This document shows positions 13,132 through 61,926 of a DNA stretch of 64,000 nt, in pieces (the stretch's first letter is position 1; the number at the start of each line of letters is the position of its first letter). The stretch covers positions 119,859,900 through 119,923,899 of the forward strand of contig NC_090943.1 of assembly GCF_040807025.1 (NCBI RefSeq), read 5' to 3'. Position numbers and translations under genes: made by a program. The notes beneath the pieces are model-generated. The model saw nothing but the letters and a program-made list of their open reading frames with translations, ran no database searches and was not told the origin of the DNA. This DNA comes from Struthio camelus (taxonomy: Eukaryota > Chordata > Aves > Struthioniformes > Struthionidae).

Positions 13132-28326
<15,195 letters not shown>

Positions 28327-30408: not shown

Positions 30409-31670
30409 AAAAAAAAAAAAAAAAGAAAGAAACAAAAACAGAGTAGCCTTCATATGGAGGGGAAAGGGAGGGGAATGAAAGGGGAAATTTAACTTTGAAG
30501 CTTCAGCTATCTTAATGAGATTTTAGGTGTATGTTTTTCCTCTGTAAACTATTTTAATGTACTTCCATAAAAGAGGCCGAGTTCATGGTGTGTTATAAAC
30601 TCTAGCTGTGAAAAGGGAGACTTTTTCAAGAGCAGTTCAGAAGTCTTTGGCAGGAACTGGCTAGAACAATTCTGTCTAGACTCAAAACTGAGCCCCAGAG
30701 GGACAGGTCGACAGGCTGGGGATTCTTGGGACAAAAATTCCAAAGTCGATTCTCAGATGGCAATCGCTGCCTCACTGTAGGCAAACACACTTCCTCCCTC
30801 TTATGTGGCGTTAGCAGTCACTGCTGATATCTGTGCAATTTTTCAGGGAATTTTATAAATTTGTTCTTGTTACAGCGGATGTTTTTTCTCAACTATGTTG
30901 AATGTTACCTATCTCAATGACCAGTACTACTCAAATCCCAAATCCTGAAATGTATATTCAGTGCCACTGTAGATTAAGCAGCTATTACTGTCAACCTGCT
31001 GTTTCTGAGTTTCAGTAATAACTAATACAGCACTAAAGGAGTTCTTACAGAAGCTATGGACTGCAAAGTTTACTGTATTTTTAGTATGTCCTGTAATGTA
31101 ATTGTTTTACTATTTTTAATGACAACAATCCTGTAATATTTCTGGTAATCTGTACTCTCCCCGTTGTCCATCAGAACTTTGTCATATCCATTTTCTTGTG
31201 GTAGGCCTGCAGATTGTTTCTGTCATGCATTGTTTCAAGCTGTAGTATTTGAAAAATATTTTCATATGATTTTTGAGTAAATTTGCAAACATAAAAATGT
31301 GTATGAGCCTACTGTTTAGATAAAATACATCCCTATTTTAGCGTAAAGTGTTACAACAAGCATCTTATGTATTCTTAACCTTGCAAGCATTTAATTCTGG
31401 CATTTCACTGCATTTGTGACTAGCTCTTTCCACTGAAAATTAGCCTTGGAAAGATCATGTTAAAAAAAAAAAAAAAAAGTGTCCCATAGCTTGACGCTGG
31501 GTAGAAACAAGCCAGAGCATTGTTCTTACCCTCATTCTTCTAAGATACTGGCAATTCTGAAACATGAGCTACACCATACTGAGAAACCTCAAATGTGGAA
31601 TGAACATAAACTTAACTAAATTTAATAATGAGCCCCAAACTCTTGTTATTTATTTTGATCTGTTTAATCC

Positions 31671-31676
31671 AATAAA
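31671..31676 (+). terminator. YES1: Alternative distal poly(A) signal AATAAA
   Basis: A canonical hexamer followed by TCTCTGTTTTT and a GT-rich stretch, about 3.3 kb after the stop codon. It would make a longer YES1 3' UTR. Its use cannot be judged from sequence alone. Confidence 0.4.
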
Positions 31677-31699
31677 ATTCTCTGTTTTTAACTTCTCTG

Positions 31700-34600
31700 T
31701 GAAGATGCTGTAGATGTTTGTACCAACTTTCCCCCAACATGTGAGACTGCAGCAGAGCTACATAGTCATGTTAGGTGTAACTAAGTGTGTTGTAAACAGC
31801 AGACTCAAATTCTCACACCCTGCTGAGGAATTTAGGACTAAATTTGAGTAACTGATTTGGGGACCAAAAGCAGGTCTATTACAGTAGATAACTGCTAAAG
31901 CCTAAAACTGTGATTCATACATTCCCTGCCTGCCTACTGTCTTTTGTGGTAGGAACTTAAGACTGTGCAGATGCCTGGAGGTTCAGGTGTCTCCCAGTCC
32001 TGCATCTTGCTCCTGCTTCAATCTGATGCTCGTGCAGGAACCAAGCTTCATCAACCTCCCAGGCCTGGCGGGAGGCTTGATACAGCAGCCTAGAGTGGAA
32101 AACCTGAGCTGTGATCTAGACTCCTGGATTGCTGCTGCATCTTATAGAGGTGGTTTTGTTAAGTGTGAAAGAGTTTTAAGTGTGAAGTGCAAGACTTCAC
32201 TCACAGCTGCAGGCATAAGCATTCGCTCTAGAGCAAGGTTCCCTTTTTCCTTGCTTTCTGTCTTCTCACGACCCAGGAGAAGGTTAGCTGGAAAAAGATC
32301 AGCAGCATCGTAGCTCCTCCCTTAGCATAGGGGAGGGAAAAGGAGACAGAGAGCGAAGGATGGAGGTGAGCAGCTGGGATGCTATTTTCAGCACTCACAG
32401 GAAAGAGAGAAGCAGGTTGAGGGGTGTAAAGCAAAGATGGCAGGGATCATCTGTTTTCTTTGTCGTATTCTGGGAAAGAGGTAGAAACAGGCATGCAAGG
32501 GAACTGAGGAGCATCTGCTCCCTTGTGCACAAGCATGGGTCAGTGGAAATGAAGCACGGCTAGAGAGAAATGCTTCCGTTCTCTGTGGTGGTTCTGTATC
32601 TGCTCGGCTCATCCTGACCAGTTCCTAGCTGAGCCCCTGTGTATTAGCTGGGGAGACCCAATATGAAAGAAGAGCAGCATTCCTCTGCCCTCTGAAAGAG
32701 TGAACCTTGATCAGTTCTTTGAAAAACCGATGCAGAGGGCCCAACCAGAGAGATACTGGCTCCTGGAGACCATGCTGACAGGGTTGTTTGCTTCTGCCGT
32801 TTAGCCCCAGAGTGATGGTGTTGCAGACACTCTGGCAAGGAGCTTAGTGTTTCTCCCCTAGTGGCGTTATGTGGATGTAGGATTTGGGATTATGTTTCCC
32901 TCCTCTCCACGTGCGGACAGAACGCCTAGGAACCCACCCAGAGTTCAGGCATCCCCCGTGGGACCCGTGTTCTCCACTGGGCCTAGTCTCTGAGCTTACT
33001 TTTCTTGTTAGCTCTGCATGCAAACACTTGCTTTTGGCATATAGCACTTTAGTTATTCATTTTTAGCATTCTTTTTTTAATTTAAAGTTACATTTTTTGT
33101 TAAATTGTAATAACCACTGTTGTTGGGGGGATCCAAGTATTTATAGCACTATGTATTTTTACAGAACGTTGTCCATCTCCTCTGTGTATGTCACTAACTT
33201 TAAATGAGTAGAAACATATGCTGGCCCTTTTGCTGCTTTTGATTTGTTCTTCTTAAAGGAGAAAGGACAGTTAACTAGTTAATCTTAGCAGGGCCTGGGG
33301 AACAGGCTGAAAATTTAAAAGAGAAACCTGAATACAAGGTTGCTGATGAATCAGTCACGTACCAACATTGAAGTTAACTGCTGTGAAAGCATTCCTTTTT
33401 CTATCAAAAAGCTACTCGCAGTAGGAGCGTTCGACCTCTCTTCTTTGTGTCCTGCTGCTAGGTTATTAAGTCTCTAGCTGAGGCTACTGATAAGTATATA
33501 CTATGACATGGATGGATGGGTGCATCTTACATTTGATCCTGAAAATCTATCCTTTGCATGCTAACGATTAGGCTTTTTTCCTGGACCTCAGCTGGTGCCA
33601 GCTGCTGCATCTGCTATTCATTCAATACCCAACATTTACTTATATTTGGGGCAGTCTTCCGGGAGCTCAGTGGCTGATGACCCTTCCCTCTACTTTAATG
33701 TCTGGAAGAGCTAGTTATATTTTCTGGCTAAGCAAGCACTTTTACTCTTGCAAAAGAGGAAAGAATAAGTCTCAATTCGAATCTGACTCTTATGAAAAAA
33801 AATACCATGAATAAGGAAAACATCTAATAATTTGACTATTTCAACATGAGAACGGTGAGGATGGCTCCCTCCTCCTCCACAGACTGTAGAATATACCAGG
33901 AGGAGTCGCTGAAGGTGTGTGGTCAGAAAATGAATGATAGCACTACATTGCAGCCCCTGCTCAATCCTGGCAAGGAGGCCGAGCCTGTGAATTGTATCCA
34001 AAGGGATTCTGATTTTGAAGAGCTCCCAAGAAAAGGCAAGAATGGAAACTGGCTTGTAAAGGACTTACATCCCTTACTCCCCACCCCACCTTCCTCTGCC
34101 CTTCTAGGCAAGGTGTTTATCATTCACTACAATCGACTGGCTTTTATTTCTCCATCATGTGGCTGTGTATTAATAGCATGAACGTGTATGAAACTTCACA
34201 GAATTAAAGATTAGCAGCATTTAGCAGCTTCATGTACCATCACTTTTTCTTTTCTTTTTTTTCTTTTTTTGTTTTAACAGGAGGTGCCTGCCAAATTGAG
34301 AAGCCCTAAATAGGGCAAGGTCAGATCCATATCACTTTCACTGAGGCACCCTCTTCACTTCTGGAATGACTGTCTTTTTCATATTGGTTTACGAATAGCA
34401 TAAATTTATACTCTTGCCTTTGTATTAAAGGACTGCAAGTACAATAGAGATAGTTTCAGTATTTACATTTTAATTTAGTGCCATTTGTTAAGGCCTTGGA
34501 TTTACTTAAAAGGGGATGTTTATGGAAAATTACTGAAAAGCCTGTGGGGATTCTGTGCTGGCTTTCTGGCGATCTTCATAGGGAAATGCCCAACCTGGAA

Positions 34601-36177
34601 GTGATTAGACATTCTGGACAGTTGTATAAGAGCGAGCGTTCCCTGTAGCACCGCGTCAAAATCTGTACATTTAATCTTCCTGATACAGTTGTCAAAGGAC
34701 AGCCGCTTGTAAGGAGAGGTTTTTTTTTTTTTTTTCATATGAAACCAAAGTTCAATCAATAGCTTCACTGGATTTAAGGTTATAATAAGTAGATTACTAA
34801 AAAGCTAAACATAATCTCTGGCGCCACTGTCATCAGAATGGCCTCGGCCTTTTCTGGTAGCTACTAAGGGTTTTGAAGAGCGAATGTGTGTGTACTTAGC
34901 AACAGATATGCCCCTTGAGTTCAATTGATCATTAAGATGAGTAACAAGGAATGACCATCTCTGCAGCTTGTGGATTACAAACGGCATTCAGGAAGGTAGT
35001 GAGAAATATGTCCACTTTGGTAGGTCAGCCTGGTCTGGGAAAATGCTGTTAGATAATCAACAACATAGCACAACCCTCCTTTGTCCACCCCAAGACAGCC
35101 AGTTTACTCTTCTGCCAGGCAACGGACAGAAATCTACAGCTACGCAACTACTCTCTTTTGGGGCTTCCCCCAAAAGCATCTGCCGTCTTGCTTAACGATC
35201 ATTCTTACCTAGCGTATAGCACTCCTCATTCTCAAATGCTTCACAAATGAGGTCAGTTTGATAATCTTCAGATGGGAAATCAAGGCAAGGGGAGAACAGA
35301 ATGAAGTTGGAGATAGCAACAGTGCAGGAGACAGAAGCTAGGGCTTGGTCTGCTAACAATTAGCTTCTGATGGGTAGTTTTTAACAGCTGACAGCTTGGA
35401 CTCCTTGTCTTGAAGTTGCAGAGGTCACTTCCTAAAACATGCTTGCTGTAATTTCACACTATCCACCGCAGTGGCTACCTGAATAAACCTGTGGACCCAG
35501 TGCAACTACTCCAGGTGCCTCCACAAAGCTAGTGTATAATCATTATTTGCGGACAGCATGGAGCTCAAGCTGGGAGACCCTGCCAGCCCCTTGCATGAGG
35601 CTGATTCAGGTACTTCTGGGGCTCAGCTAACCCACTACCTAGATAACCTATGCATGGCAAACTTCAGCTGTCCTGCTGGCATCACTTCCAGAGTCACAGT
35701 GATCCTGGGCCACAGCGCCCCTTGCCTCCAGAGTTGAGGTCTGCGATGTCTGCAATGCCCCGAGAAGCTCATATGCAGCCTCTCTGATGCCTGTGCAAGT
35801 CCCTGGGGCCTGAGCTGACACAAAGGTGAGCAAGTGGCCTTGCACCACAGGAGCCTCATGCCTTCAGCACACTCTTCATGCTGTAAGATCACATCATTGA
35901 AGGAGTATTTGATTTTACCAAGACATCACCAGATCACAGGATCATTCAGGTAGGAAGGGACCTGCAGAGGGCTCTTGTCCCCGCCGCTAAGCGGGTCCTG
36001 AGGTATCACAGCTTGCGGCTGGTGGGGTGGCTTACGGCAATGCTGTTGGTAGCTGGGTACATCACCCAACACTGGAGCCCAGTGCGCTGGCATCACCCTT
36101 CCCAAGCGCCGGTGGGGGCAAGAGGGTAATAGGGCCCACACCAGCCTGGCCTGGCACTAACAGTGGTGTTGCAACAG
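31700..36177. other. Intergenic region between YES1 and the ENOSF1 relics
   Basis: No intact gene. GC content rises from about 35500 rightwards. ENOSF1 exon 1 and its promoter would be expected near the right end, but I could not identify either. A CR1 fragment lies at 35932-36050. Open frames up to about 110 codons look like chance. Confidence 0.7.
35932..36050 (-). mobile_element. CR1 LINE fragment, minus strand
   Basis: The plus strand reads GATCACAGGATCATTCAGGT then AGGAAGGGACCTGCAG, the reverse complement of the CR1 3' end. Next comes a diverged CCGCCGCTAAGCGGGTC segment matching the 'tgctcaagcagggtc' part of CR1. The 3' end of the element is at 35932; the 5' edge is vague. Confidence 0.75.
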
Positions 36178-36284
36178 CCCACGCAGCACGTGCACCCCGA
36201 CTACTCCACAGCCTACGTGGAGGTGGAGACCGCTGCTGGGCTCAAAAGCTACAGGCTGATGTTCATCCTGGGGCATGGAAGTTA
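36178..36284 (+). pseudogene. ENOSF1: ENOSF1 exon 2 relic
   Basis: After an AG at 36176-36177 the frame reads HPDYSTAYVEVETAAGLKSY and RLMFILGHGS. This aligns with the DPDYSAAYVVIET...GIKG...FTLGKGT segment of human ENOSF1, two codons shorter and with several changes at conserved sites. The frame reaches TAG at 36283-36285. A GTAAGT lies at 36285-36290, but using it leaves a phase that differs from the one I expect. Confidence 0.6.
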
Positions 36285-36290
36285 GTAAGT

Positions 36291-39200
36291 TGTTACCTTG
36301 CCCAAATTGAAGGAGGAATCTCTGATTTCACACCTGATACTGCTCCTGCATCTAGCAAATTCAGTGCAGAGCCATGTGTAAAGGAGTTTCAGGTCTCGGA
36401 GCAACCTAGGTGGCCTGGCATCAGAAGTTGAAGTTTAAGCTGTTCCCCTGCACACACCTCCCCCTATCCTCAGGCACCAGTAAATCACTTACCTGAGGTG
36501 TGTCTGTGACCCTGCTTTTTGCTATGTGTTTATTCATATGTTGAACATGGGTTTCCTTCCAAGCAAACTTGGAATTAAGTGCTCCTTTCCCCTGCCTTGC
36601 AGACAGGTGACCAGTTTGCAAGATCCGAGTCAAGCACATAACGAAGGAACACTCTGGAGCTGGCCCAAAGCGCTCAGCTGGAACAATCAGAGCGCTTGGG
36701 CAACACGGTGCAAGGAATATTGTACAAAAATTTGTGTTCCCTAATTGCACGGCTTTTTATGTCTGTTAACCTTATGCACAGGTTTTACGTCTGTTTTTAT
36801 TAGGTAACGCCATTTGTTACGACAGGATGCAGCTGAGATAGCACGCTGCTTGCAAGGCTTAGCAGCAAGAGATCTAGTCTCTCTGTAGTAGTCTTTGCTG
36901 CTTTCTAATACCAAATTTATCTTCCCTTGTCCTGCTTGGTAATTGTAACATTTTCTGTATAAGGGTAGAGCACACTGGCTGTAGAGAAAGTTAGTTCAGG
37001 TTCATCATTTGCCACAAGGGTGGCCAGAGTGTGAACTGGGAAATTTGGTCCTCTGCCCACCATCAGACCCAGTCTCCCAGATCAATAGCGCCCTAAGGAA
37101 TAAATACATAAGATTATTGAACTTCTTCTTCTTCTTCTTTTTTTTTTTTTTACCTGTGATCAGAGGGAAGCACATGGGTTTTCTAAATACTTGATCTGTT
37201 TTTGTTTATGTAAGCATCTGTCTTGTTTATACAAAACTCTTCTGCACAGTCACTTATTACTAGTCCTATCCACCAGCTCTGGTTTCTGAATAGGCATTAA
37301 GGACTGTGCTCCTTGCCTCTTGGATGGGGTAACTGAAGAATCAACCTCTTATCTGCATGCAAAAGTGGTCATTAACTTCAATTTAGTAGCCTGGGTTCTC
37401 CAGTCCTGTCCCTTCTCTGCCACCCTGTGATTAGCACACAGGTCTACAATTTACTCTCAGATTTATACTATGAGGAGGAGTTGAGTTGCATGATTTTTTT
37501 CCCATACAAAATATGGTATGCAGCAGTGTTTTAGAAGGGATTTCTAAGAGCCCGTTCAGCTAGTAGGTGCCCTAGACCATAGCAATTCCTTTTTTGCCGC
37601 TCAAGTCTAGTATTTCATTGACACTACTAACAAACAGTGTTAAAAACAATCAGTTGAACACCTGCAAAACCTGTGACCTGATGATATCATGCCTTTTCCT
37701 CCCTTGATCCACCTCTGAAATTGTTTCTCATAGAAACACCTGATTTTTTTTTTTTAATTTCACTAAGCAATTTGGCAAGCAGTTATTTTAAGTTTCTTTA
37801 AGGATTCACCATTATCTTAGGTAGGCTAGGATCTGAGCCTGTGTATCACCTGGTCTGTTATCTGCAGCTTCAAACCTGGTAATATAAGATGCTGAACACC
37901 CTTCAGTCTTCATGAGGGGGAATGTGCTCAATACAACCTGCCTGAGTTACCTAAATGACCTCAGTGACTGTTGCATGTGATTCATCGCATCCAAGGGAGG
38001 TGAGATGGGAAGTTGTCCCCATGGTGCAGAGAGGAACAGCAAAGAACAGAGACACAGGCAAGTAAAGTGCCTTGCCCGGAAGCAAACAAAAAGGTGTTTA
38101 TGAAACTGAGGTTCAGACGCTTGTTTCTCAGATCACAAGCAAAGTCCCTAAACAGGGGAGACCACAGAGAATTGGATTTTGTCTCCTGTTCAAATTTCTC
38201 CCACATTTCTCTTTCTTACAGATCTTGCAGATTGTTCTCTTTGTTCCATGCTGCTGAAGAAAATGATGGTTGGCACGTGACTTTCTACTGTGTCTGTTCT
38301 TTCTCTGACCCTCTGCAGCTTGCGAGACAAGGGTCCGTGTAAGGAGGTGCTTTCCTGATCTGCACGTGGTGTATTCTGTGGCGCTCTATGGAATTTATGA
38401 TGAAATGAACAGTGGTATGTGGCACTGGAAAAAACAGAATTCTGCTTCTGCCCCTAATCTTGGGGACATAAAACAGCGTGACTACACCTGCCTTTCTATT
38501 ATTCTCAGAAACAAAGTCCTTTATTAGGGAATGAGAATTTGAACACGACTGGAAATACCAAAACCACTCTGGGAGATGCAGCACTTGCTTGAAGGGTACA
38601 TAAAGGGTCTCCCATTTAAAGAAACGCTGTCTGCCTAAGAGGACATGTGATCTGACAGCCTCTGCCTCTAACATAGTTCTGGGCTATTGGTCTAGAGCTT
38701 ACAGTTGTGGGGGGTGTTTTATTTTGTTTCCCTCTGAAGCAAGAGGTAAAACAATAGCAACTCTTCATCTGGAAAGCCTTTTATACCTATTAAATTTTTG
38801 GAGGAATGGATCAGCATTTGGCAACAGACAAATAAGAGATGAAACATGACCGTACAACTAGACAGTGGCCACCCAGATCTGGATGCAGAGTGAGTGGTTC
38901 CATAGTGATACAATTCATGGACTGTCAGAAAAGGTTGCTTCCCTAAACATCAGCCGAAGGAAGGGCCCACAGTAGTTGTGTTAGAGACATTTTGCTGTAA
39001 TGAGGCAGTAAATTTTGCTATGCTTTGCAATTGTTTATGCTGTCGAGGCCCTCTCCATTTGCACAGTCAACAGACACATGGAAGAAGTTGCTGTGTCCAT
39101 ACCTTGATGGGCACAGTTAGATATGCTTGATCTCTGCAGACCTTCTGATTTAATTGGACAGAAGCAGCAAAAAGCTGTAGCCAGCAGTGGAGTTGCCACT

Positions 39201-39822
39201 GAGCACTCTCATACACCATGCACCTCGGGACATCCCACCACACTATCCTGACCGCACAGCTTGCAGGTGAGAGCCGGCTTGTGTCCCACTAGCTCAGGTC
39301 CACCAGCCTCCACCGTCTCACTTCTGCTCCTTTGGATTGATCCTTCAGGTATCCTTCCATGGAAAAGTAACCAGCAACCTTCAGCTTGCCAAAATCCGAG
39401 AGCATAGTACCGTCCCAAATAGCGCATCATCAAAAAATTCACACCACAGATATCTTAAACATAGAAAGGATATACTGTATAGTGATAAGTTCCAGCAAGG
39501 GGGGTAGACCAGCATTTCAGATAGCTAGTATGAGGCTCACTCTTTTCTTTTTAGTGTAAGAATTACCCCACCAATACTGCATCCATAATGAAAGCAAGGT
39601 AAGAGGAATACTCCAGTCTTAATTATTTTAATGGGAAATTGTTGAATGTTCTGGCTTGGAGTTGAGAACCACATTACTTCAGGGTCAGTAATTAATTCTG
39701 AGTGTCAAATGGAAACACGTTTGCACATTCTGACACTTTATCAAGAAGCAAAAACCATGTGCGTGCTACCTCCTTCATAGCATCCATCTAGTTCTAATTA
39801 TTGAATTCATTTTGTTTTCCAG
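36291..39822. other. ENOSF1 intron space without recognisable exons
   Basis: The coding segment for roughly residues 55-125 (about three exons, including the RWIGPEKG and LNAVWDLW phrases) should lie here. I could not find a convincing match on the plus strand. A CTT/T-rich tract sits at 37121-37152. Otherwise nothing is recognised. Confidence 0.6.
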
Positions 39823-39849
39823 ACTCTGTGGAAGATACTAGTTGACATG
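39823..39849 (+). pseudogene. ENOSF1: ENOSF1 27-nt micro-exon (LWKILVDM)
   Basis: A TTTTCCAG acceptor and GTAAGG donor frame 27 bases reading TLWKILVDM, matching PVWKLLVDM of the human protein. It is in phase with the next segment. No lesion is seen in this piece. Confidence 0.7.
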
Positions 39850-40377
39850 GTAAGGAAATCTTGTTATATTTCCTAAGGAAAGGTAATTTGTCACTCTTGT
39901 TTCTGACCGTATGAAAAGTGAACAGGTTTTAGCTTGTGTCTAAACTCTGAGGGAACTCTATTTAATTTTAAGATGCTCTAAAAGAACCTATTTTTTTTCT
40001 GGGAGCAGGAGGTGTGAGCACAGGGATGCACCTCTGCGTTGATTAGATGGCTGGAATGTGAGATGCCGCTTTCCCATTTAATTTTTGCTCCTGCTTGGAT
40101 AGAATTTAAAAGAAAGCTGAAAAGGGCTTATTACCTACTACTTATAGCCATAAACTTAGGCACATGCTTACATCTTTGCCAGTGCAAGGTAGGCTCAGGT
40201 TAGGTTGTTGGTGGGGAGGGCCTAGAATATTTTCTGTGTCTCAGTTCCCTACTCACTTAAGAGAAATGGGGAAAATATTGATAGCCAAGCCTCATGCAGC
40301 TAGCATTACTTAATCTTTTGTCATCATACTGTTTCATTATGCCATGCTTTTTATTTTATGGCTTGTTCTTGAATCAG

Positions 40378-40449
40378 GAGCCCAAGCAATTATTATCCTG
40401 CATAGAATTCAAATATATTACTGACGCGCTAACAGAAAAAGCAGCTTAT
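40378..40449 (+). pseudogene. ENOSF1: ENOSF1 exon relic (SCIEFKYITDALTE)
   Basis: 72 bases between AG (40376-40377) and donor GTAAAT read EPKQLLSCIEFKYITDALTE then KAAY. This is 24 codons, the same length as the human exon reading DPRMLVSCIDFRYITDVLTE then EDAL. The open frame is intact. Confidence 0.85.
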
Positions 40450-42504
40450 GTAAATCTTCTTTCCCTCAAAGCTGGATTCTCCTCCTTCCTAATCCTTGAA
40501 CGGCCGCATCAGTTTTGGCAGTAACTCAGGAATACACCACCAGTCTGCGGGACTAAGACAGATTGGAGGTGCAACCATAATGATGAAATCTGGTGCATGA
40601 GGAGAAATTGTTCTTCACTGTAATTTCATATTTATGCTTGTCCCCCTACTCCAAAATGGCCTGCTTGGGAACAAGGAAAGGGGTGAGCTTAAACTAATCT
40701 ACACCTGATTAAAATCATTACTCTGTATGTCTTAGAGAATGGGAAAGGGACTGTGTGCGATGAAGCATGTTGTCTGCCAGCATCTTCTCATCCATCTCCA
40801 GCATTGCAAAGTTGGGCATTTGTTTTATGCTACATTGGTTGCTTTTTGCCATATAACTGTGGCTGGCTAGCAAGGAGATTGTGCTGTTTTCTTCCAAGGA
40901 TTTTTCTGAGTTGCAATTCTCTTTCTTTAAAATAGCTAGGGAGAAGAGAGAGGGGTTTATTCAGCAAAACTGATCTCCTTGATTAAAATTATGGCTGCTA
41001 AGGAACACCTCCACTCCTTCAGTTTCCACAAAGAACAGTCTTTGACAGACCATTGAACAAAATAATCTTTGCTGACTAAAAAGCAAACTGGCTTGAGACA
41101 ATCTTCATGTTTCAGAAGAGCAAATGTTAAAGCGTTTTTATCCTGCTTATACACCATCCCCTGCCTGGCTGTGCTACTCAGAACAACTGTTAAAACAGGT
41201 TTGAATGTTTGGTCTCTCAAATAGCAAGACTGTAAGTGATTTGTGCAATGGGGAAAAGTTAATGGACAACGATCAATGCTCAGTGCTTGCTTCTAAACAC
41301 TTAAAAGTTTTGCTGGACTGAGTAAAAACGTAACATTGCAGATATATCTTGGGAGTTCAAAGCAGACCCAGTGCTATAATTCTGCCAGTAAGGCAGAGTG
41401 CCTTGTCTAAGGCAAAGTCTTGTCTATCATCAAGGGTAGGTATACCCAACGTATATGAGTATTGAGCACAAGGTACTAATGCAGTCATGGAAGTAATGTG
41501 TGTGGGTTGTGTTGTGTCCAGCAAGGAGCTTGCATGGGTGTAGCTGTGTCAGTTTAAGCAAGGAGCTTATGCACATAGCAATACTCAGCAAAGTGATATG
41601 AAATGAGCAAAAGCGTGATCCTCAAGAGCATCAATGAAAACACATTACATCTGTGCCTCAATGGCTATGTTCAGAAGCCCAATGCCTGTAACCTGCAGTA
41701 ACTCCATCTCTGAGGAATGAGGATGTCTTCTTTGCAGGTAACATGAATCTCAGAAGTTTGACAGTTGTTGGTTTCTTCTGGAATACATGGTTGCCTCAGC
41801 TTTGAGGGATATTTCGCAACTGTCAATGGCACGAGACGTGCCCTCAGTTTCCTTCGTTTCTGGCAGCATCGTTCCTGCCAGAGACAATTGCCTGTGCAAT
41901 GGACTTGGGTTTTTTTTGTGAAAAACTGTGAAAGCTTTTGACAGTTTAGGGGTGTCAGATTTAGCTAATGCAACTGGGGTTTATCTTCCAGGAAATGTAT
42001 CCCTTGGCGAATCTAGAAATAGCATTGCTGAGTCATGGGATGTTCATAGTTGGATTAGCAAAAGTTATCATATGTTACAGTTTAGCCAGGTTGAGCAGTT
42101 TCAGTCCCGTTTTTCAGCTGGATGTTATTCATATGTCTGATCGTGTTTTCCTTGAGTTTCTGCTACCTCCTAGGAAGAAACTGAAAGTTTATTCTGATTT
42201 TGAAAATGTGTATATTAATATTATGTAGATGCATTGCAGTAGAGTTATTTGGAGATTTATTGTAGATGTAACTTTACTTGCAGTTAAGCCCAGAGGCTTT
42301 GAAAGAGGACTAGACAAGGTACAGTAAATACTTGTCTTGAATGTTACTCTTCTGCGTTTTATGCTTTGATGAAGAGATAGACTAGTTCTTGGCTAACTCT
42401 TTCATGTCTATGATACGGGCAGTCATGTCTTTACTTCTGTATAACTCTTGGTCACGTTCCTTCCTTCTACTGTGGCATAATACTGCATTGCAGGAAAAGA
42501 GTAA

Positions 42505-42538
42505 CGGTATGGCAAAGCTGATGGAGGGCTGATGCCAG
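42505..42538 (+). pseudogene. ENOSF1: ENOSF1 exon relic, doubtful (KLMEG-stop)
   Basis: A short stretch reads MAKLMEG then TGA, followed by TGCCAG. It can be set against the AQALKDGWTR end of the human exon, with Trp TGG changed to TGA. It lies in the right place, just before the KVKVG exon, but the match is too short to be sure. Confidence 0.25.
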
Positions 42539-42757
42539 ATGAAAATAACCATGTTTCCATTGATTTACGAAAAAAACATTTGCTGTTTGATTTTCAGAGT
42601 AGGATGAAGCCTGCTTGTAAGGGAAGAGAAGTAATAAAACATATTCTTGCTATAAGACAGTGATGCTGAAATTGTAAAATCTAGTTTATGTATTCCTATC
42701 TACTGATGCATTAATCATTCAGAAGTGATCTATATCTTGTTCCAAATGTGCATCTAG

Positions 42758-42845
42758 GTTCAAAGTAAAGGTAGGTGCAGATCTACAGGATGATATTCAT
42801 AGATGCAAATTTATACGAAAAATGATTGGCCCTGACAAAATAGTG
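42758..42845 (+). pseudogene. ENOSF1: ENOSF1 exon relic with the KxK motif
   Basis: After AG at 42756-42757 the frame reads FKVKVGADLQDDIHRCKFIR then KMIGPDKIV: 29 codons after one phase base, the same as the human exon. KVK is the catalytic KxK of this enolase-superfamily branch. At the expected exon end (after 42845) the sequence is ATGAAT, not GT. The nearest usable donor, GTGATG at 42843, would drop one codon. Confidence 0.85.
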
Positions 42846-43941
42846 ATGAATATCACTTTCTGCTACTATATCAAGTCACTGTATATTTAAAACTCTGAGA
42901 TGAAAGATCCCCCATTACGTAAATTTATCGACAAAGAGTTCTTTTCCTTCCTGAAATCCTGAATAATGATGCCAACAAATGTTGATGTACACCAGCAAAG
43001 AGCAATATATATGACCAAGTATACCTATGACTAAGAATTTCATCCTCTATTTCATGAGCCAGAATTTCCATTCAAGTCTGGAGGGGAACCCCTCTTGCAG
43101 CATTGCCTTCTACAAGATTTAGAGTGTCTTTTATATCCAGGAAGGCTTCCAGAGGAAAGCTTGTCGATATTTTTGTTCTGTGTTTGGCCAAAGGTAAACT
43201 GGAAAACAAAAATTTCAAACTAAAGTCATGTGAATGAAAAGAAATAATTAGATGCAAGTAATACATTTAGATTTGGGGATGACTGCTGGACTTCATTAAC
43301 TGATATACGGTGGATTCTTTGCCCCATGTTTTCCACTACGCATCACAGTTGGCCCTCTGCTCTGGGACTTTCATGGGTGCCATACATCGTGAAATGCCTA
43401 ATCAGGAACTCTGCGAACACAGGACGGAAGGGACCTAAGAACCGGAAAAGGAACCATGGTGTCATTTCCAGATCAAAATTAATAATTTTCAGATGTTCCG
43501 TTTTTGAAGGGTTGGGAAGAGATGGGAATTGTCCTTCTGTTGGAGTGAACTGCTGCTTGTGAAACATGTCTTACTTAAATTACTATATTTTCTGTCAAAA
43601 AGATTTTCTGCTGAAAATTTCAGACAGCCATGTCCATGTTTAGGGCGTTTTACTCCAGCATATGTCGATAAGATCTTTTGATTCCCTCGGAAGACCCTTC
43701 TGCCCTTGCTACAGCTCCTATCTATCTTGCTGAAACCTAGCTTGGGTATTGCTATAGCTATTGCAAGCTTCTAGCATAAGCATGGCCAAAAGCATACGAT
43801 TCAGACAGAATGTGTGCAATTTCCTTTCAATTTCCTGGATTTTCATCAGTTCATGTCAATTTTTCAGCTCCTTTTATTTGAGTCTGACAGAAAAAGTCAA
43901 TAGAATGAGGTGCATTTGATCTTCATTTTCCTTACTCCCAG

Positions 43942-44076
43942 ATGGTGGATGCAAACCAACGATGGGAAATAAAGGAAGCGGTAGAGTTGGTCACTGAACT
44001 AGCTGAATTTAAACCCTTATGGATTGAGGAGCCAACTCCTCCAGATGATATTTTGGGAAAGACAACCATTGCAAAG
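43942..44076 (+). pseudogene. ENOSF1: ENOSF1 exon, best-preserved relic (metal-binding Asp and Glu)
   Basis: 135 bases, 45 codons, equal in length to the human exon. They start with MVDANQRWEIKEAVELV and continue through FKPLWIEEPTPPDDILG to TTIAK. DANQ carries the first metal-ligand Asp and WIEEP a metal-ligand Glu. No stop or indel is present. The acceptor is good (CTCCCAG), but the donor GTTGGA is weak. It is the strongest single piece of evidence for ENOSF1 here. Confidence 0.9.
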
Positions 44077-44687
44077 GTTGGAGGGCTTGTTTTTTTTTTT
44101 TTAATGTCAATAATGATGCAGTAACTCCAGTCTAGAAAACTGTAATATATTGTCTATACTGCTCCTTGACATACTCAGAGTTCAGTTGAACTAGTTACTC
44201 AGACTCTCATTAAATACATTTGTTACAGAACCTTGACACACATTCCCTAAGTTGCAAGGGATAGTTTATTCCTAAAAAATATGTAAAAGGACTGTCATGC
44301 CTGCCCGAAGAAGGCTGCCAATATTTAGTTTAAAATGTGCAGGGACTTGTTCTAAAATGCATGCTTTAATATTTCAGTGAAGTTGGAAGTATATTGGTGC
44401 AGAGATTGCATGCACAACATGATGTACTTAGCAGCACTGTTAAAGCCCCACATGTACAATATCTGCATTTCTTTGCTGCTCCGCACACCTTGTAATTCTT
44501 TACATGTTTATGTAGCAGAAAAAGCAGAAAAATATCAATAAAAATTTTTATAGCATGTGTAACATTTTCTATAGAATGAGTAACAAACGTTATGCTGAAT
44601 CAACTGTTATTCCATCCTTTATGTTACTAACTCTATTGGCAATCAAAAATCAGAAGTGAGTCTTGAATGTTTGCTATTTCCTTCCAG

Positions 44688-44732
44688 GCCTTAGCACTGC
44701 AGGTAGGAATTGGTGAGGCAACAGGAGAACAT
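44688..44732 (+). pseudogene. ENOSF1: ENOSF1 exon relic (GIGEATGEH), donor lost
   Basis: After TTCCAG the frame reads ALALQVGIGEATGEH, against ALVPLGIGIATGEQ in human: one extra codon and Ile-to-Glu in a conserved core position. GE carries the third metal ligand. Right after 44732 the sequence is ATGAGT, which looks like a GTGAGT donor with its first base changed; the frame then runs to TGA. Confidence 0.8.
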
Positions 44733-47700
44733 ATGAGTATGTGTTGAAGTGTTTTTGGCTTTTTCCTAATTACTGTTTATTTAATATGACTACTTCATAA
44801 CCTTTGGGAGCCTGTGCCAAAACTATCCTGCATTTCCCACTAGGGAGTTAAATACTATAAATGAAAATTACTTGATATCTGTTTCAGCTGCTCCCTAGCA
44901 AGGGTGCCTGCCTTCACCTTCTCTCCCTGATTCTTTTCTTCCCACACACAATTTCTGTGAACCACCTGGAAATAACTGCTGTTTTTAAAATTATTTTTAT
45001 TAGGAGAGTAACTGCTAACATTTTGTATTCTCCGAGCAGAGAGCAATATGAACCAAATGCATCTGTGGTCAGGATTGCCCGTGTAGCAGCTACAGAAGCA
45101 AGACATAGAGAGTAAGTCCATGCTGCTCGGTGGAGCACACTGCGGCTACATGAAATAACTTAAGAGTCATCTGGAAGGTCTGTGCAGAACAAGGTGGTCG
45201 GGACAATATGGTCTGTACAGAGCTGCAGGGTTCCTGAAGCACGATATCCCCTTTAGCCCTAGGGTAATTAGCACAGCTCCCTACTCACTCTGTGGCCCTG
45301 GAGTCGATACGAGCGTTTTGCTCAGTACTGCCTTGCATGCATAGATATTAACCCCCCTGCAACTACTTGAAGGAGTGTTTTTAGAATAAAGAGGTTCCTG
45401 GGTCCTATTTCTATACCAACCCTATTTGCGCTACACTAACAAACACAGCTGTAGAGATTACGATCTCTGAAGATCTTTCTGTTAGCAAGCGGCAGTCCTG
45501 TTTCTGACAGGCTTCTGTACAGTATTTCTCTGAGAAATATTCACAAATATATAACTCAAACACTGGAAATAGGAAGCTACTTCAGGCTCCTTCTGTTTAG
45601 GCCTCAGTTCAATTATTATTAGGGGCTCAGTCCTACAGCGTCCTCAATATCCAGCGCTTCTGGAGAAACTACAGACTCCATCTTCAGCTGGTGCTGCCTG
45701 GGCAGACTTAAGTCTCTTGAAGACCCCCAAGAAATCTAACCTGGCCAGCGCAATATGTAGGTTCGACTCATGCTCACTGCTCAACACAGTTGCAGCAGTT
45801 GAGATTTTTCTTCCAACTGCCACATCCCCCCATTTGGCTTCTCTGCCCGGCTTTGCTCAGGGAAGGCCTAGCAGCATGGAGAGCTTTGAGAGACAGGCTC
45901 TGTGGCCTCGCACGGGCTCCTGACCTGCCGTGCCTGCCCACCCCTCAGGCATGGGCGTGCCGCCTTAGGGCACTGGTCAGGGTCTGGATCAATGCAGGGA
46001 AGGCCATGGCCAGGCATAGCCGCAGCACAACTAGAGACAGGCATGCCTGGGACGTAGCTCCAGCTGGGACCAGAGGCCCTGGGCCGAGCTGAAGTGGGGC
46101 TCCCGGCCCAGCCAGGGTGGGCTGGTCACAGCCAGAAAGGCCTGTTAGTGTCCCAGGGGTCCCGAGAGCAGCTTGCCCTCCAGTGAGGTGCGTTCTCACA
46201 TCTTACAGAGCTGTGCTCAGACTGGACTTGCCGTGGAGAGGTTTACTTGCTGTGGGGGACCCAGAGCCAGAGCAGAACAGGGCACTGAGCAGGGCTCCAC
46301 CACCTCTGTGGTGGAGAGAGAGGTCCGAGGTTAAGGTGGGAGCAGCTGCCAGCGAGTCAAGGTCAGGATGAGGCCCAGTGATGGTAACTGGGGTCAATCA
46401 AGCACAGACCAGTGATTAGCAGGCAGCTCTGGGGTAATCAGGCCAGCCAACGTCAGGCCAAGAAGCCATCCACAGGCCCATGGCCAGGCATAGGCATGAC
46501 TGCAACGCCAGGTTGCACCTATGGCATAGCTCGGGCAGAGACCGAAGGCCCATGGGGGACCGTGTGACCCAGGTGGGCCTGGAGGAGAGCTACTAGTGCA
46601 TGCAGGGCCCTTGCAGGATTTCCTCAGAAGGAAGCTGTTCTGCTCCATTTTTGCACGTTGCATATACAGCTATTTTATAAGGTTTTAAGTAACTTTTCCT
46701 TTTTGCCAACAAAACTCCTTACTAGCATTAGTAGCAAGTCACTGCCATCAGCTGTATTTAAATACTTTTCCCTTAAATACTTTTAATGAGTCCAAAGACC
46801 TATTTCCAAAACTACTTCCTGGATACATCATCAACAGCGGAGTGTCAAGAGACAGAATGGTACCTTTTAGAATACCAGTCTACAAGCTAAAGTAAGTTGT
46901 TTTTTATTGCACCCCTCTCCCTGCCAAGTCTTGACACTATATCTACAGAGCCAAGCAAAGTGAATTAACAAACTCTCAGTTCTCTGGAGCAACTGGAGAG
47001 AAATACTGCATTAGCATAGTTTCTCTGCTGCCAGTTTCTCACGCCAAGCCCTGCTATCTACGTATTTCATCGCGCTTCTTGCTTTCAGCTGTTGTCTGCC
47101 AGTAGATAGTACGCTCAATCTGGGAATGAGGGGTGTTGTATAATGAACACCTATTAGGATAGGTTTGAATCTACCCATTACAATAGCCCTGCTTCATAAA
47201 GGCCAACTCCTGAATGCAGGCTTTACTTCATGTTTTGTAAAACCTTTTTCTTCTTTTCACCATGACCTCTAGGAACCAGATAGACATTTAATGCATTTAT
47301 CTGCAGAACTTCCCTGTGAATAAGGTGAGTGGTGTTATCCTTACTTCAGACATGGGAAATTGATGTGAGGCCTGAACTAACAGAACAACATAGTTAAGAT
47401 CAAGCAGACAATCTGCAGCACAGCTAGAAATGCAATCCTGACACTTATCCAAGCGTCTTGACTACAAGGCCATCCCTCAGCTGGCTGTATTGGTCTCCAG
47501 GTCCCTCTCTGCAGACATGGAGGCTGCTGCAGTTGGTTAGGTAACTAGAAGGGGTTGAGTTGGCTCCTAAAGAAGCCTCAACCCTAAAAAGATTGTGAGG
47601 CAAAACGCTCTGAAATTTTGAGTGCTGTAGGAAGTCTCTGCTCCCAGACAGAGCTGCCGCATCAGCTTTACATAACAGTTCTACTATAAAAATGAGCCAT

Positions 47701-48157
47701 ATTTGCTCAGGTTGAGCCCACTAACTTTGTACCTAGACTGGAAGAACCATTTTCCCTCGGTATTTTCCCTTCACTTTCACTTTTTCACTGGATGTGGTCA
47801 ACATCCAGTAAAGGGGCAGTAATTTCTAAACCCACTCCAAACAGACGGGGCTGTTAGGCCCACAGTGATTTTCTCAGTGTGCCTCCACTCATCCACACTT
47901 AGATCAGATGTAGTCCTCTTAGTAATTTAACTTTACAAGTGTAGGCTAATTCTTTTAATATTGGCAGCATCCTTGAACTTCTCTTCCTGCAAATTCTCAT
48001 GCGATATTTCATATAAATAGAGTAATTAAAATAATTTGGATTTATCGAGAAACACAGGAGGGACACTGTACAAATGTTTTGATGTTAGTTGCCAGCAGCT
48101 CTTGTAGTATGTTAATTCTAGAGACTTCAGGTCTTAACTTTTTATTTTTCCTTACAG
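44733..48157. other. ENOSF1 intron space with a GC-rich repeat block
   Basis: About 3.4 kb. The middle (45700-46620) is markedly GC-rich and contains a diverged internal duplication. The rest is AT-rich and holds no recognisable gene. Confidence 0.8.
46001..46590. repeat. Diverged direct repeat in a GC-rich block
   Basis: AGGCCATGGCCAGGCATAG at 46001-46019 recurs as AGGCCCATGGCCAGGCATAG at 46474-46493. Similarity continues for about 100 bases in each copy, with substitutions and small gaps (roughly 46001-46125 and 46474-46590). The spacing is about 473 bp. I do not recognise a repeat family. Confidence 0.6.
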
Positions 48158-48279
48158 TGCCAAAATAGAGTGATAGCTCCTACAAGCTAAGGCCCTGACT
48201 TATCTCCAAATTGACAGCTGCAGACCAGGAAGCATGAATGAGAACTCATCTGTGTTGCTGATGGCCAAAAAGTTCCAGA
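48158..48279 (+). pseudogene. ENOSF1: ENOSF1 exon relic with 8-base frameshift deletion
   Basis: After TTACAG comes CQNRVI in one frame (48158-48175), then, one frame shifted, LLQAKALTYLQIDSCRPGSM and NENSSVLLMAKKFQ. The human exon has FKQ between these parts. The segment is 122 bases against 130 expected, so 8 bases are missing. In the starting frame TGA follows soon (near 48200). The site after 48279 reads GCAAGG, so the donor is GC rather than GT. Confidence 0.85.
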
Positions 48280-48625
48280 GCAAGGCTCTGCAAAATGCTG
48301 CAGGAATGAGAAAGTCTTTCTCCCCACTCCCCCCCACTAGCCTGATTAGCTTCTTCATGCTTTTAATTTCTGGGCATAAGTTTGCATGCACTGCTGTAAT
48401 TTCCTTTGTTTCATGTTGTGCTATAGAGCAGCACCAGAACACCCTTGATCGCTCCATACTGGGCACTGTCTTTCTCTGTCTTGGCTGGGAACAGTTGCTG
48501 TGACTGTTTGTCAGGAGCATTGTTAAAATAACATGAAAGAATGGAGACATCATTGATCTTAATCATTCAGTCATTTCCCCCATGTTCTTAACTTAAGTAC
48601 AGGCATTGTTCCTTTTTGTTTTCAG

Positions 48626-48720
48626 TTCCTGTTTGCCCTCATGCTGGGGGAATCGGCCTCTGTGAATTAGCCCAAGGAATAAGGCCAATTTTGCAACATA
48701 CAGTAACAAATAAAAATAAT
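48626..48720 (+). pseudogene. ENOSF1: ENOSF1 exon relic (PVCPHAGGIGLCEL)
   Basis: After TTTTCAG, two phase bases are followed by PVCPHAGGIGLCEL, nearly identical to the human PVCPHAGGVGLCEL that lines the active site. Similarity breaks off after this. The expected FDYISVSASLENR part is only faintly traceable at DNA level, with indels, and no clean donor is seen. Confidence 0.8.
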
Positions 48721-50742
48721 GATGGGGGTTATAAAAGTGTCTAAGAAGGTAGAACATGGAGAGAATTAGTATCTGAGCAAAGCGGTAAGAAATTTATCTT
48801 TGTGAGCTGATTGAATTTCCTCTAGGAAGTAGGGAAAGAAGTGATAGAAGCATGCATTTGGAAGGGAAATGACAGATGAGGGTAAACTCTGCAAGGCCAA
48901 ATTGTGAGGCAGAATAAGCCTAGCAGTCAGCACAGCAAATGGCAAGGACTCAAAAATGCTATGGATATGCAGAGCTAGTAAGGAACTGAGACTTGAATGC
49001 TACTGGTAGAGCTCCTCAAGCCACCAGATTGGCAGCGTGAGGGATAGGAAAATGCTGGGACAACTTACTCATCAGGAAGTAATCCCAAGAACGCTCCTTT
49101 CTTTCAGTTGGCTTATGGGTTCCTTACACCCATAAGGATCTAACAATGTCCCTAACATGCTTTGTCTTCAGTCCTGCTCCGCATATAGTCAACCTGCAGT
49201 CCTGTTAGTCATCTTTGCCAACAGTGAACAATCTTTTCACATTCTGCATATGAAAAATCCTTAAATACCTCCTCTTTAGGTCTATATATTCAGATTTCTT
49301 TGCCTGAAAACATGTAAATCTCATACCTATAAATTTTACATACGTGGTCTTACACCTTTGCTCACATTAACGTCTGCTGTATAATAAACCATTTTTACTC
49401 TTTTAAATCTCTCTGATCTCTCAAGCAGCATAAACTGTCTTGGACTTTGTTGCTTAAGGTACAAGCTTCATTTTTACCACTGCTGCCAGTAGTAAATTGT
49501 GCTGACACAAAGGAACAATGTTTTAGTTAATTCATATACTGAAAGGCAGCATATATTGGTCTAGTGCTTACCATGATTAAGTATGCTGTGTATACAGTAA
49601 TGGAGAGCGGATCATTTGTCACATTGCATAAGGGTAATACTTAAAAAGTATTTTTAAAATTTTCCTTATGACTGGACTAACTCCTTCTTAACTTATTTAA
49701 AAAAGCAAATGATTCCCCTTCTAAATTCTCTTTGTTGGGTATTTCTGTGCTGGTTAATTTACTTGAGACTGCTAACTCCCATTAGTCAAACCTTGAGACC
49801 AACACTTTGCTTCCTGTCCTCTCTAGCTACACTTGCTAAAACGCCCTGCAGATTCCAGCTTATCTGAAGTGTTACATAAAGTGGTTTCCAGTAAAAGGAA
49901 CTTAACTTGCTAAGTGCAGGCACAACGGTTAGGTGAATTTGCAACCTAATCTGTTTTCTTGTATCTTAGAGGTCTGTAAATACGCACAAGAATCTTTAAC
50001 TTACAGCAATGCACGCATGACAGTAAGGTTGCTGCCAACCTAAAGCCGGATGATACCATTAATATAGACGGCACCTGGAATATCAGAACTAGATGACCTT
50101 AAAAGATAAGACTACTAGAGATGGAATAAAATTTACTGTAAGGAACATATGAACTGGCTTTCAGGTTAGTAACAAGAATATTTACTACGTTTGAGAGCTC
50201 AGTATTGAAGAGAAGACAAGACATGAGTTTGTTACTTAATTACAGGTTGGCTCTTCAGCATCCATTTAATGCAGCCTGAAGAAAAGATAGGTTTGATCTT
50301 CCATGCATCAAGCAAGGTTCTGGTATGAGCTCAGCTGAAACAGCACAAAGTATCATTTCTGCTAATGGAAGATGAACTGAGTAGGTACTGAGGAGAACCT
50401 ACCTAATAAGCAGTAGCTTATTTACTTTTGATGTACTTACAGAAGGTAATGATAGCCTCTTTCTGCAATTTTCTTGTACTGGACTAAAAGTTGGAACAAT
50501 AACTCAAGCTTTAAAAGTCCTGCTGGTTAGAATTTAGAATAAAATTTGTCTTCTCGAATTAATTTCCTGAGCGCATTTTCAGTAGTATCCAAGGGCAGAA
50601 AGATATTAGTTCTACAGTAAAGGTTGACTGCTCTACGTGAGGAGGTATAGGAAACTCCGGCCTGTAGTAGCAGGGACTAGACTGGTGCGTGAAGAGCACC
50701 CTTCAGCTGTGATATACTTGAGCTCTATTTTTTTTCTTCCAG
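48721..50742. other. ENOSF1 intron space
   Basis: About 2 kb of AT-rich sequence without a recognisable gene or repeat. Confidence 0.75.
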
Positions 50743-50824
50743 GATGTGTGAATTTGTAGATCAACTTCATAAACACTTCAAATATCCTACTGTAATCAAA
50801 AATGCTTCCTACATGCTATCTCTG
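50743..50824 (+). pseudogene. ENOSF1: ENOSF1 exon relic (CEFVDQLHKHFKYP)
   Basis: After a good polypyrimidine tract and CCAG, one phase base precedes MCEFVDQLHKHFKYPTVIKN then ASYMLSL. Human reads VCEYVDHLHEHFKYPVMIQR then ASYMPPK. At 82 bases the length equals the human exon. Donor GTATGC at 50825. The frame is intact. Confidence 0.85.
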
Positions 50825-52440
50825 GTATGCTCTCTTAAGTGTATACACAAAGGAAAGTACCTCCATCACAAACAGTGAAAGATTTTTTAAGACTTAAAAC
50901 ATAAAATAGCAGATGTTTCACATGGTATTCAGTACACTTGGACTGAAAAAAGGGATGGTGGATGCATTACTACATGGAACAAAAAAGTAGGTTTGTTAAT
51001 TACACCTGAAAAGTGTTTCTGAAAGGAGCGTAACGCTAGTCAGAATTCAGCCCTGGGAACGTCTCCAGGTCTGTCTAATAGTTTGCATTGCTGACTTATC
51101 TAGCAAACATAAATGTATTAAGAGCGTGCCTTCAACATCTGTTATCCTCTGCAACTCTAACCAGAAAACAGGGATAGGGTAGGACTGGGAAGACGACTCC
51201 CACTGGCCTTTTACATAGGCTCAAAGGACGATGTAAATTCATAGTCCACTCTTGAGCAGTATAAGAAAATTGTTACTCAGTTGCAAAATATATCTTCACT
51301 TCCTCCCCAATGAGTAAACAATATTCTGATCTGTAAAGGATGAAAGAAATGAAAGAAAACTCTGCAAGAAACTATCAGTTTCCAGAAGGAGAAGGTTGGC
51401 AGAAGCACCTGTCAAGCCAAAAGGCACAGCAGCATTGAATAGTTAACCCCCATAAGATCTTAACTGAAAGGTAAATTCCTCAAACTCACTTTTGGAGCAC
51501 ACAGAATCACATGAAGTGGTGCTACAAAAAAATTAATCTGAAGATAAGTGCTTCTGTATAATGAAGGGATTTGCAAATAATTTTGGTGTAAAATATGTTT
51601 CTGAAAGTTATGATCAGTTTAGTTTAAGAGAAATGGAACAGTCCTCTCACTTTCAGGCCCCTGAATGAACTGAATCAAAGCCCAATGTTTATTAAATTCT
51701 TAGAATTAACTCAAATCAAACACCTTTGCAATGATATTTGCCACTATTTACTGACTCTAAAAATTAAATAGCAGCTATGTCAAATAAAAATTACTATGCA
51801 TTCCTCCATATGTTAAAGTATATACTGAATATACCAAGTCTGAATATTAACTGTAATCTGTCCACAATTGAATTTCTGAAGAGGAATTTCGTATGGACTG
51901 AAGATACAGCAAAGGTTGCAAGGATATTAAGAGATAAAAACTGAATTCTGCTAAGATTTAATCCATAGGCTCAAATCCTACAAGCACCTCTACCTCTAAA
52001 CTTTTACTGCTCCAGACTGTAAAATTAGTTTGCCTGTTTATGGGATCTGGACTTGAATGATGAGTAATGTGACTTATTCATCAGTCGTATATATACAGAT
52101 GGTTTGCTGCGAGGCAGACAGATTGTTGCTAATACTACCTGTAACCTAGGTTTAACTACAGTTCTGTTTGATTTGTCTCAAGTTCATCATTCATGTATGG
52201 TTGGGGAATGAAAAATGCTGATACACAGATGTTATGAGGAGATTCTGTTTCAGACAGCTCCATTAAGACCTTTTGCCTTCCTGCTCGATTCACCTACGAA
52301 GACCATGGTAAGCCCGGATTTGTTTTTCCTTGCTAAAGCTCACCTTCCAAGGTGCTAAAGTAGAACAGAATTTACCTTTGCTTTCCATCTCTTAATGTAT
52401 TACTAGCTATAAACAAACATCATAGTAAAATTAAATATTC
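50825..52440. other. Intergenic region or ENOSF1 tail
   Basis: The last ENOSF1 exon should be here. Only a faint similarity near 52254-52300 (CTTCCTGCT around LPA) was noted. No other gene is seen before the TYMS 3' end. Confidence 0.6.

Positions 52441-53036: not shown

Positions 53037-61926
<8,890 letters not shown>

Follow-up and report, generated by a model that had tools for sequence, protein, structure and literature searches.

In humans, the gene ENOSF1 lies between YES1 and TYMS, in the order YES1-ENOSF1-TYMS, and is convergent to TYMS. ENOSF1, also called rTS, encodes an L-fuconate dehydratase of solved structure (PDB 4a35). A 2005 survey reported rTS from every vertebrate it covered other than chicken and mouse, with the reservation that the chicken data were perhaps incomplete (PMC1261261), and a 2011 survey found ENOSF1 in the anole and not in chicken or zebra finch, concluding that birds had apparently lost the gene (PMC3197473). 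Here we describe the corresponding locus in Struthio camelus, in a window of 64,000 nucleotides (the whole stretch analyzed; contig C2, NC_090943.1, positions 119,859,900-119,923,899, from an assembly of 1.45 Gb in 262 contigs). Remains of ENOSF1 lie in order on its plus strand, at 36178-51438, between YES1 and TYMS. Judged from the sequence, this is very probably the orthologous bird ENOSF1 locus, decayed in place to a unitary pseudogene, as had been proposed in an earlier reading of the same DNA (the original prediction).

The locus resembles that of human ENOSF1/rTS in the order of its segments, in having YES1 and TYMS as neighbors and in running convergent to TYMS; unlike the human gene, it cannot encode the enzyme, with a stop codon, a frameshift, and splice sites and exons lost. 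It leads to the same conclusion as the 2011 survey, that the gene was lost in birds. The accessible text of that survey, however, bases the absence in chicken and zebra finch on BLASTP and describes no remains, whereas here the remains and their lesions are mapped. Rodents offer a parallel, ENOSF1 being reported as lost in mouse and decayed in rodents (PMC1261261, PMC3197473), but theirs is an independent lineage. STK33 is also a bird unitary pseudogene, which has lost exons and carries stops and indels, and whose age its authors put at about 100 million years (PMC4509753); it is described as a pseudogene in neognaths that palaeognaths have kept, whereas ENOSF1 is dead in Struthio camelus, which is taken here as a palaeognath. 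The loss of ENOSF1 itself is not new. As far as our literature searches reach, the mapping of its remains is. What had been an absence in the BLASTP results of two birds thereby becomes a dead gene on the map, whose lesions can be dated.

We compared human ENOSF1 (a sequence identical to PDB 4a35 across residues 1-440) with the window by tblastn and then read exon borders straight from the DNA. Frameshift-tolerant scans were also run, with 60 shuffles of two-base blocks per segment as the control. The tblastn segments followed the human protein from N to C terminus on the plus strand, as the original prediction had described, with the best match at 43942-44076 (E 1.6e-16). The pieces of 27, 72, 88, 135, 45, 122 and 82 nucleotides that it had listed were all present, and their splice borders could be read:

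36178-36280, plus strand: ENOSF1 exon remnant, human residues ~29-62; AG acceptor, possible donor GTTAGT; E 3.6e-4, 50% identity
38319-38414, plus strand: probable, badly decayed ENOSF1 exon of 96 nt, human 101-132; 3 stops in the best-matching frame
39823-39849, plus strand: ENOSF1 27-nt exon, human 133-141; 6/9 identical, splice sites kept
40378-40449, plus strand: ENOSF1 72-nt exon, human 142-165; 14/24 identical, splice sites kept
40643-40682, plus strand: ENOSF1 exon remnant, human ~166-178; donor GTGAGC, no AG acceptor; score reached in 0/60 shuffles
41116-41198, plus strand: ENOSF1 exon, human 179-206; AG acceptor, weak donor GTTTGA; E 3.5e-6, 0/60 shuffles
42284-42318, plus strand: ENOSF1 exon, human ~207-218; in-frame TAG; 0/60 shuffles
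42758-42845, plus strand: ENOSF1 88-nt exon, human 218-247; KxK motif kept, donor AT not GT; E 6.9e-10
43942-44076, plus strand: ENOSF1 135-nt exon, human 248-292; open, splice sites kept; best PDB match 4a35
44688-44732, plus strand: ENOSF1 45-nt exon, human ~293-306; tblastn match, donor AT not GT
48158-48279, plus strand: ENOSF1 122-nt exon, human 307-350; frameshift near 48176, 8 nt shorter than human, donor GC
48626-48707, plus strand: ENOSF1 exon remnant, legible over human 351-366; eroded at its end, GT missing where the donor should be; E 2.0e-6
50743-50824, plus strand: ENOSF1 82-nt exon, human ~382-409; splice sites kept; E 1.3e-7
51339-51438, plus strand: last coding exon of ENOSF1, human ~415-440; TGA end; E 0.002, 0/60 shuffles

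The 15 readable pieces together share 204 of 304 residues with human ENOSF1. When 43942-44076 was compared with PDB, 4a35 (E 1.1e-16) came ahead of bacterial L-fuconate dehydratases (2.4e-11). By sequence comparison, then, the remains are homologous to ENOSF1 and not to another member of the enolase superfamily. One piece needs more caution. The stretch 38319-38414 has the length and position expected for human residues 101-132, with AG and GT at its borders, and of the 125 stretches of 88-108 nt that splice sites flank in the window it scores highest, by a small margin (33 vs 31); its plain scan was not significant, the score being reached in 28/60 shuffles. We regard it as a probable decayed ENOSF1 exon. 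A match of human residues 65-84 at 39030-39089 was out of order and was dropped.

The remains carry several disabling lesions. An in-frame TAG (42311-42313) occupies the position of human Trp216. In 48158-48279 the first six codons lie in one frame and the remainder in another, which confirms the frameshift that the original prediction had reported. Altered donors are confirmed as well: after 42845 and after 44732, AT stands in place of GT. The exon at 40643 has no acceptor AG, and the one starting at 48626 has no GT at its expected end. Because the donor after 48279 (GCAAGG) could work as a GC donor, it was left out of the lesion count. None of the four point lesions that were checked lies within a long single-base run.

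Parts of the gene have also vanished. In scans of the window, human residues 1-28 (score reached in 42/60 shuffles), 60-100 (11/60) and 364-384 (52/60) did not rise above chance, and the scores for residues 60-133 and 100-133 likewise fell within those of shuffles (39/60 and 28/60). The claim of missing exons thus holds for these three segments, whereas four pieces absent from the earlier list are present (40643-40682, 41116-41198, 42284-42318 and 51339-51438), the last of which moves the end of the remains from 50824 to 51438. No complete open reading frame spans the capping and barrel domains: residues 1-28 and 60-100 are traceless, and the stop and the frameshift fall in the barrel part.

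The same reading was applied to the two neighboring genes, both of which are intact, with no lesion over their 18 exons together:

13140-28326, plus strand: YES1, left neighbor; 11 exons, 541 amino acids, all donors GT, all internal acceptors AG, 0 internal stops
53037-61926, minus strand: TYMS, right neighbor, convergent; 7 exons, 307 amino acids, 0 internal stops, all splice sites GT/AG

The original prediction was therefore right to call the neighbors clean. The loss of constraint is also apparent at the level of single residues. As a yardstick we used the best 80 of 92 bacterial relatives. Ninety positions are invariant in human ENOSF1 and 80/80 of these relatives; 65 of them are readable in the remains, and 25 fall in unreadable parts. 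The remains keep 55 of the 65 (85%). By comparison, when the 80 relatives are left out one by one, none of them keeps less than 97% of invariant positions, and XcFucD keeps 94%. Decay at invariant positions indicates that constraint on the ENOSF1 remains is lost. These results bear on the idea that a working ENOSF1 has been made to look broken by sequencing or assembly error. A single assembly is the sole source of the sequence, but the lesions are of several kinds and lie outside homopolymers, the neighbors carry none, and the loss of 10 of 65 invariant residues is a pattern that read errors do not give. We consider such an error extremely improbable.

We then looked for ENOSF1 across the genome. 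Human ENOSF1 gave eight matches at E <= 10, of which seven are the window locus and the eighth, on contig C1, is at chance level (E 4.9). The Pfam domain MR_MLE_C had a single match, at the ENOSF1 locus. Within the assembly, there is accordingly no working copy elsewhere; a second intact ENOSF1, which the original prediction had named as one possible refutation, was not found. The search ran exon by exon and scored best candidates only. A search of this kind can find a dispersed gene: in a control it picked up BDH2 on contig C4, as a run of exons over residues 1-245. The locus might nevertheless be a decayed duplicate, with an intact ENOSF1 in a part of the genome that is unassembled or was missed by the search. 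The assembly is in 262 contigs, and genes are known to go unseen on the dot chromosomes of birds (PMC12954441). Against this, the remains sit in the ancestral place between YES1 and TYMS and have introns, which argues that the copy in the window is the original, and the genome matches converge on this locus. An intact hidden copy seems to us very improbable.

Together, a dead coding sequence, intact neighbors and the absence of a second copy from the assembly uphold the designation unitary pseudogene. The exons lie between intact YES1 and TYMS, in the ancestral place and with introns, as opposed to those of a processed or duplicated copy. Several observations weigh against the conclusion. Exons in the middle of the gene are well preserved; that at 43942-44076 is open and shares 32 of its 45 residues with human. 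The positions of KxK, D250, E276, E305 and H355, among which we presume the catalytic residues to be, survive in the remains. A search that proceeds exon by exon and keeps best candidates leaves room for a copy absent from the assembly. Finally, a 2025 paper lists ENOSF1 among chicken mRNAs (PMC12586055).

How might the gene have died? Selection on L-fuconate dehydration probably lapsed first; disabling mutations would then have ended the last working copy, after which the remainder of the gene would have drifted. In the present state, the two AT donors would keep the core exons from being spliced together, and translation would run into an internal TAG, a shifted frame and absent exons.

The decay at invariant positions, if read as neutral drift, amounts to 0.075 substitutions per site (0.040-0.136). 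At a faster rate of 1.9e-9 substitutions per site per year, this corresponds to 40 (21-72) million years. At the rate published for kiwi, a palaeognath, of 8.0e-10 per year (PMC9550048), it corresponds to 94 (50-170) million years. The globins of this genome make a palaeognath likely: among single chains, alpha-A globin exon 2 (C15:19166163-19166372) is closest to PDB 3a59/3fs4, ostrich haemoglobin, at 147.8 bits against 135.2 for the next, although six fused human chains score higher because two stretches are counted for them; beta globin gave no such separation. The count behind the age was confined to readable blocks, which pulls the estimate towards younger values. Residue decay thus dates the loss loosely, and an ancient shared loss and a later one are not separable by age alone.

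That ENOSF1 died recently and in this lineage alone, other birds having it intact, is possible, if doubtful. Two thirds of the readable residues (the 204 of 304) are still as in human, and the faster rate allows an age of 21-72 million years. The 2025 naming of ENOSF1 in chicken implies that some chicken annotation bears that name, which speaks against simple absence (PMC12586055). However, neither the 2005 nor the 2011 survey reports a chicken gene, and the latter also reports none in zebra finch; moreover, the kiwi rate gives 50-170 million years, from an age that is biased downwards. The original prediction had assumed that chicken keeps ENOSF1, so that the loss would be special to this lineage. 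The two surveys (PMC1261261, PMC3197473) are contrary to that assumption, which is poorly founded even with the 2025 naming. With less certainty than attaches to the pseudogene itself, we infer that the loss of ENOSF1 is old and common to other birds, not peculiar to Struthio camelus, and the pseudogene described here is probably part of the published bird loss. Lesions common to several birds would show whether the loss happened once. The remains are ordinary in kind, and useful as a dated fossil gene.

According to a 2026 report, HSD17B14 and ENOSF1 belong to a single route that turns L-fucose into pyruvate and lactate, with BDH2 as a candidate member; the report describes the role of L-fucose breakdown in vertebrates as still unclear (PMC13406643). 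At E <= 10, HSD17B14 matched the genome 23 times, with 25-54% identity and a best E of 2.1e-5, and none of these matches is a clear orthologue of this L-fucose dehydrogenase. Three of the 23 form a colinear run on contig C14 (6.515-6.533 Mb), which weighs against the absence of HSD17B14. Over its four exons this run is about equally close to BDH2 (20/48 residues) and to HSD17B14 (17/69), and the 60 best of the 81 PDB matches of its last exon do not include HSD17B14; it was consequently taken not as HSD17B14 but as another member of that enzyme family. A match on contig C5 was also rejected, since many other short-chain dehydrogenases/reductases outrank HSD17B14 there. For the fucose mutarotase FUOM, neither Pfam PF05025 nor the human protein had a match in the genome. 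This is a weak negative, as FUOM exons are probably short and an empty result of such a search says little unless a positive control accompanies it.

Other enzymes that handle the sugar appear to have been kept. BDH2 is present, as the exon run on C4 noted above. The salvage-enzyme domain PF07959 matches at C8:38701756-38703024 and C10:22616304-22619232, the former covering positions 9-418 without a stop, and we infer that these two loci are FPGT and FCSK. Tentatively, this lineage, and perhaps all birds, may have given up the L-fucose breakdown route (HSD17B14 gone, ENOSF1 dead, FUOM not found) and kept the salvage enzymes and the multi-purpose BDH2. If so, losing the first step, HSD17B14, would have lifted selection on ENOSF1. 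The main danger to this idea is that bird genes may be hidden in unassembled GC-rich parts. Our literature search on birds found, in the text accessible to it, no report of a loss of HSD17B14 or fucose dehydrogenase, and the main texts of PMC4290089 and PMC12954441 name neither ENOSF1 nor HSD17B14. Should the dehydrogenase really be missing as well, birds would amount to natural knock-outs of a vertebrate sugar-breakdown pathway.

Lastly, the remains could still act as RNA, by giving rise to a TYMS-antisense transcript of the kind proposed for human rTS. The arrangement is suggestive: the two genes are still convergent, and the last ENOSF1 exon ends 1.6 kb from the TYMS stop. On the other hand, the start of ENOSF1 has no CpG island (none beside the remains in 29001-36500, observed/expected ratio at most 0.50), and a search of the whole window against Rfam gave no match. 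The nearest polyadenylation-like signals stand at 51783 on the plus strand and 52474 on the minus strand, so that transcripts of the ENOSF1 remnant and of TYMS would not overlap. We consider such a role improbable. The start of TYMS does have a CpG island (observed/expected 0.94-1.01), and the lack of one beside the ENOSF1 remains also favors the pseudogene reading. Within the ENOSF1 remains, window positions 45501-46500 are GC-rich (0.52-0.61) and low in CpG.

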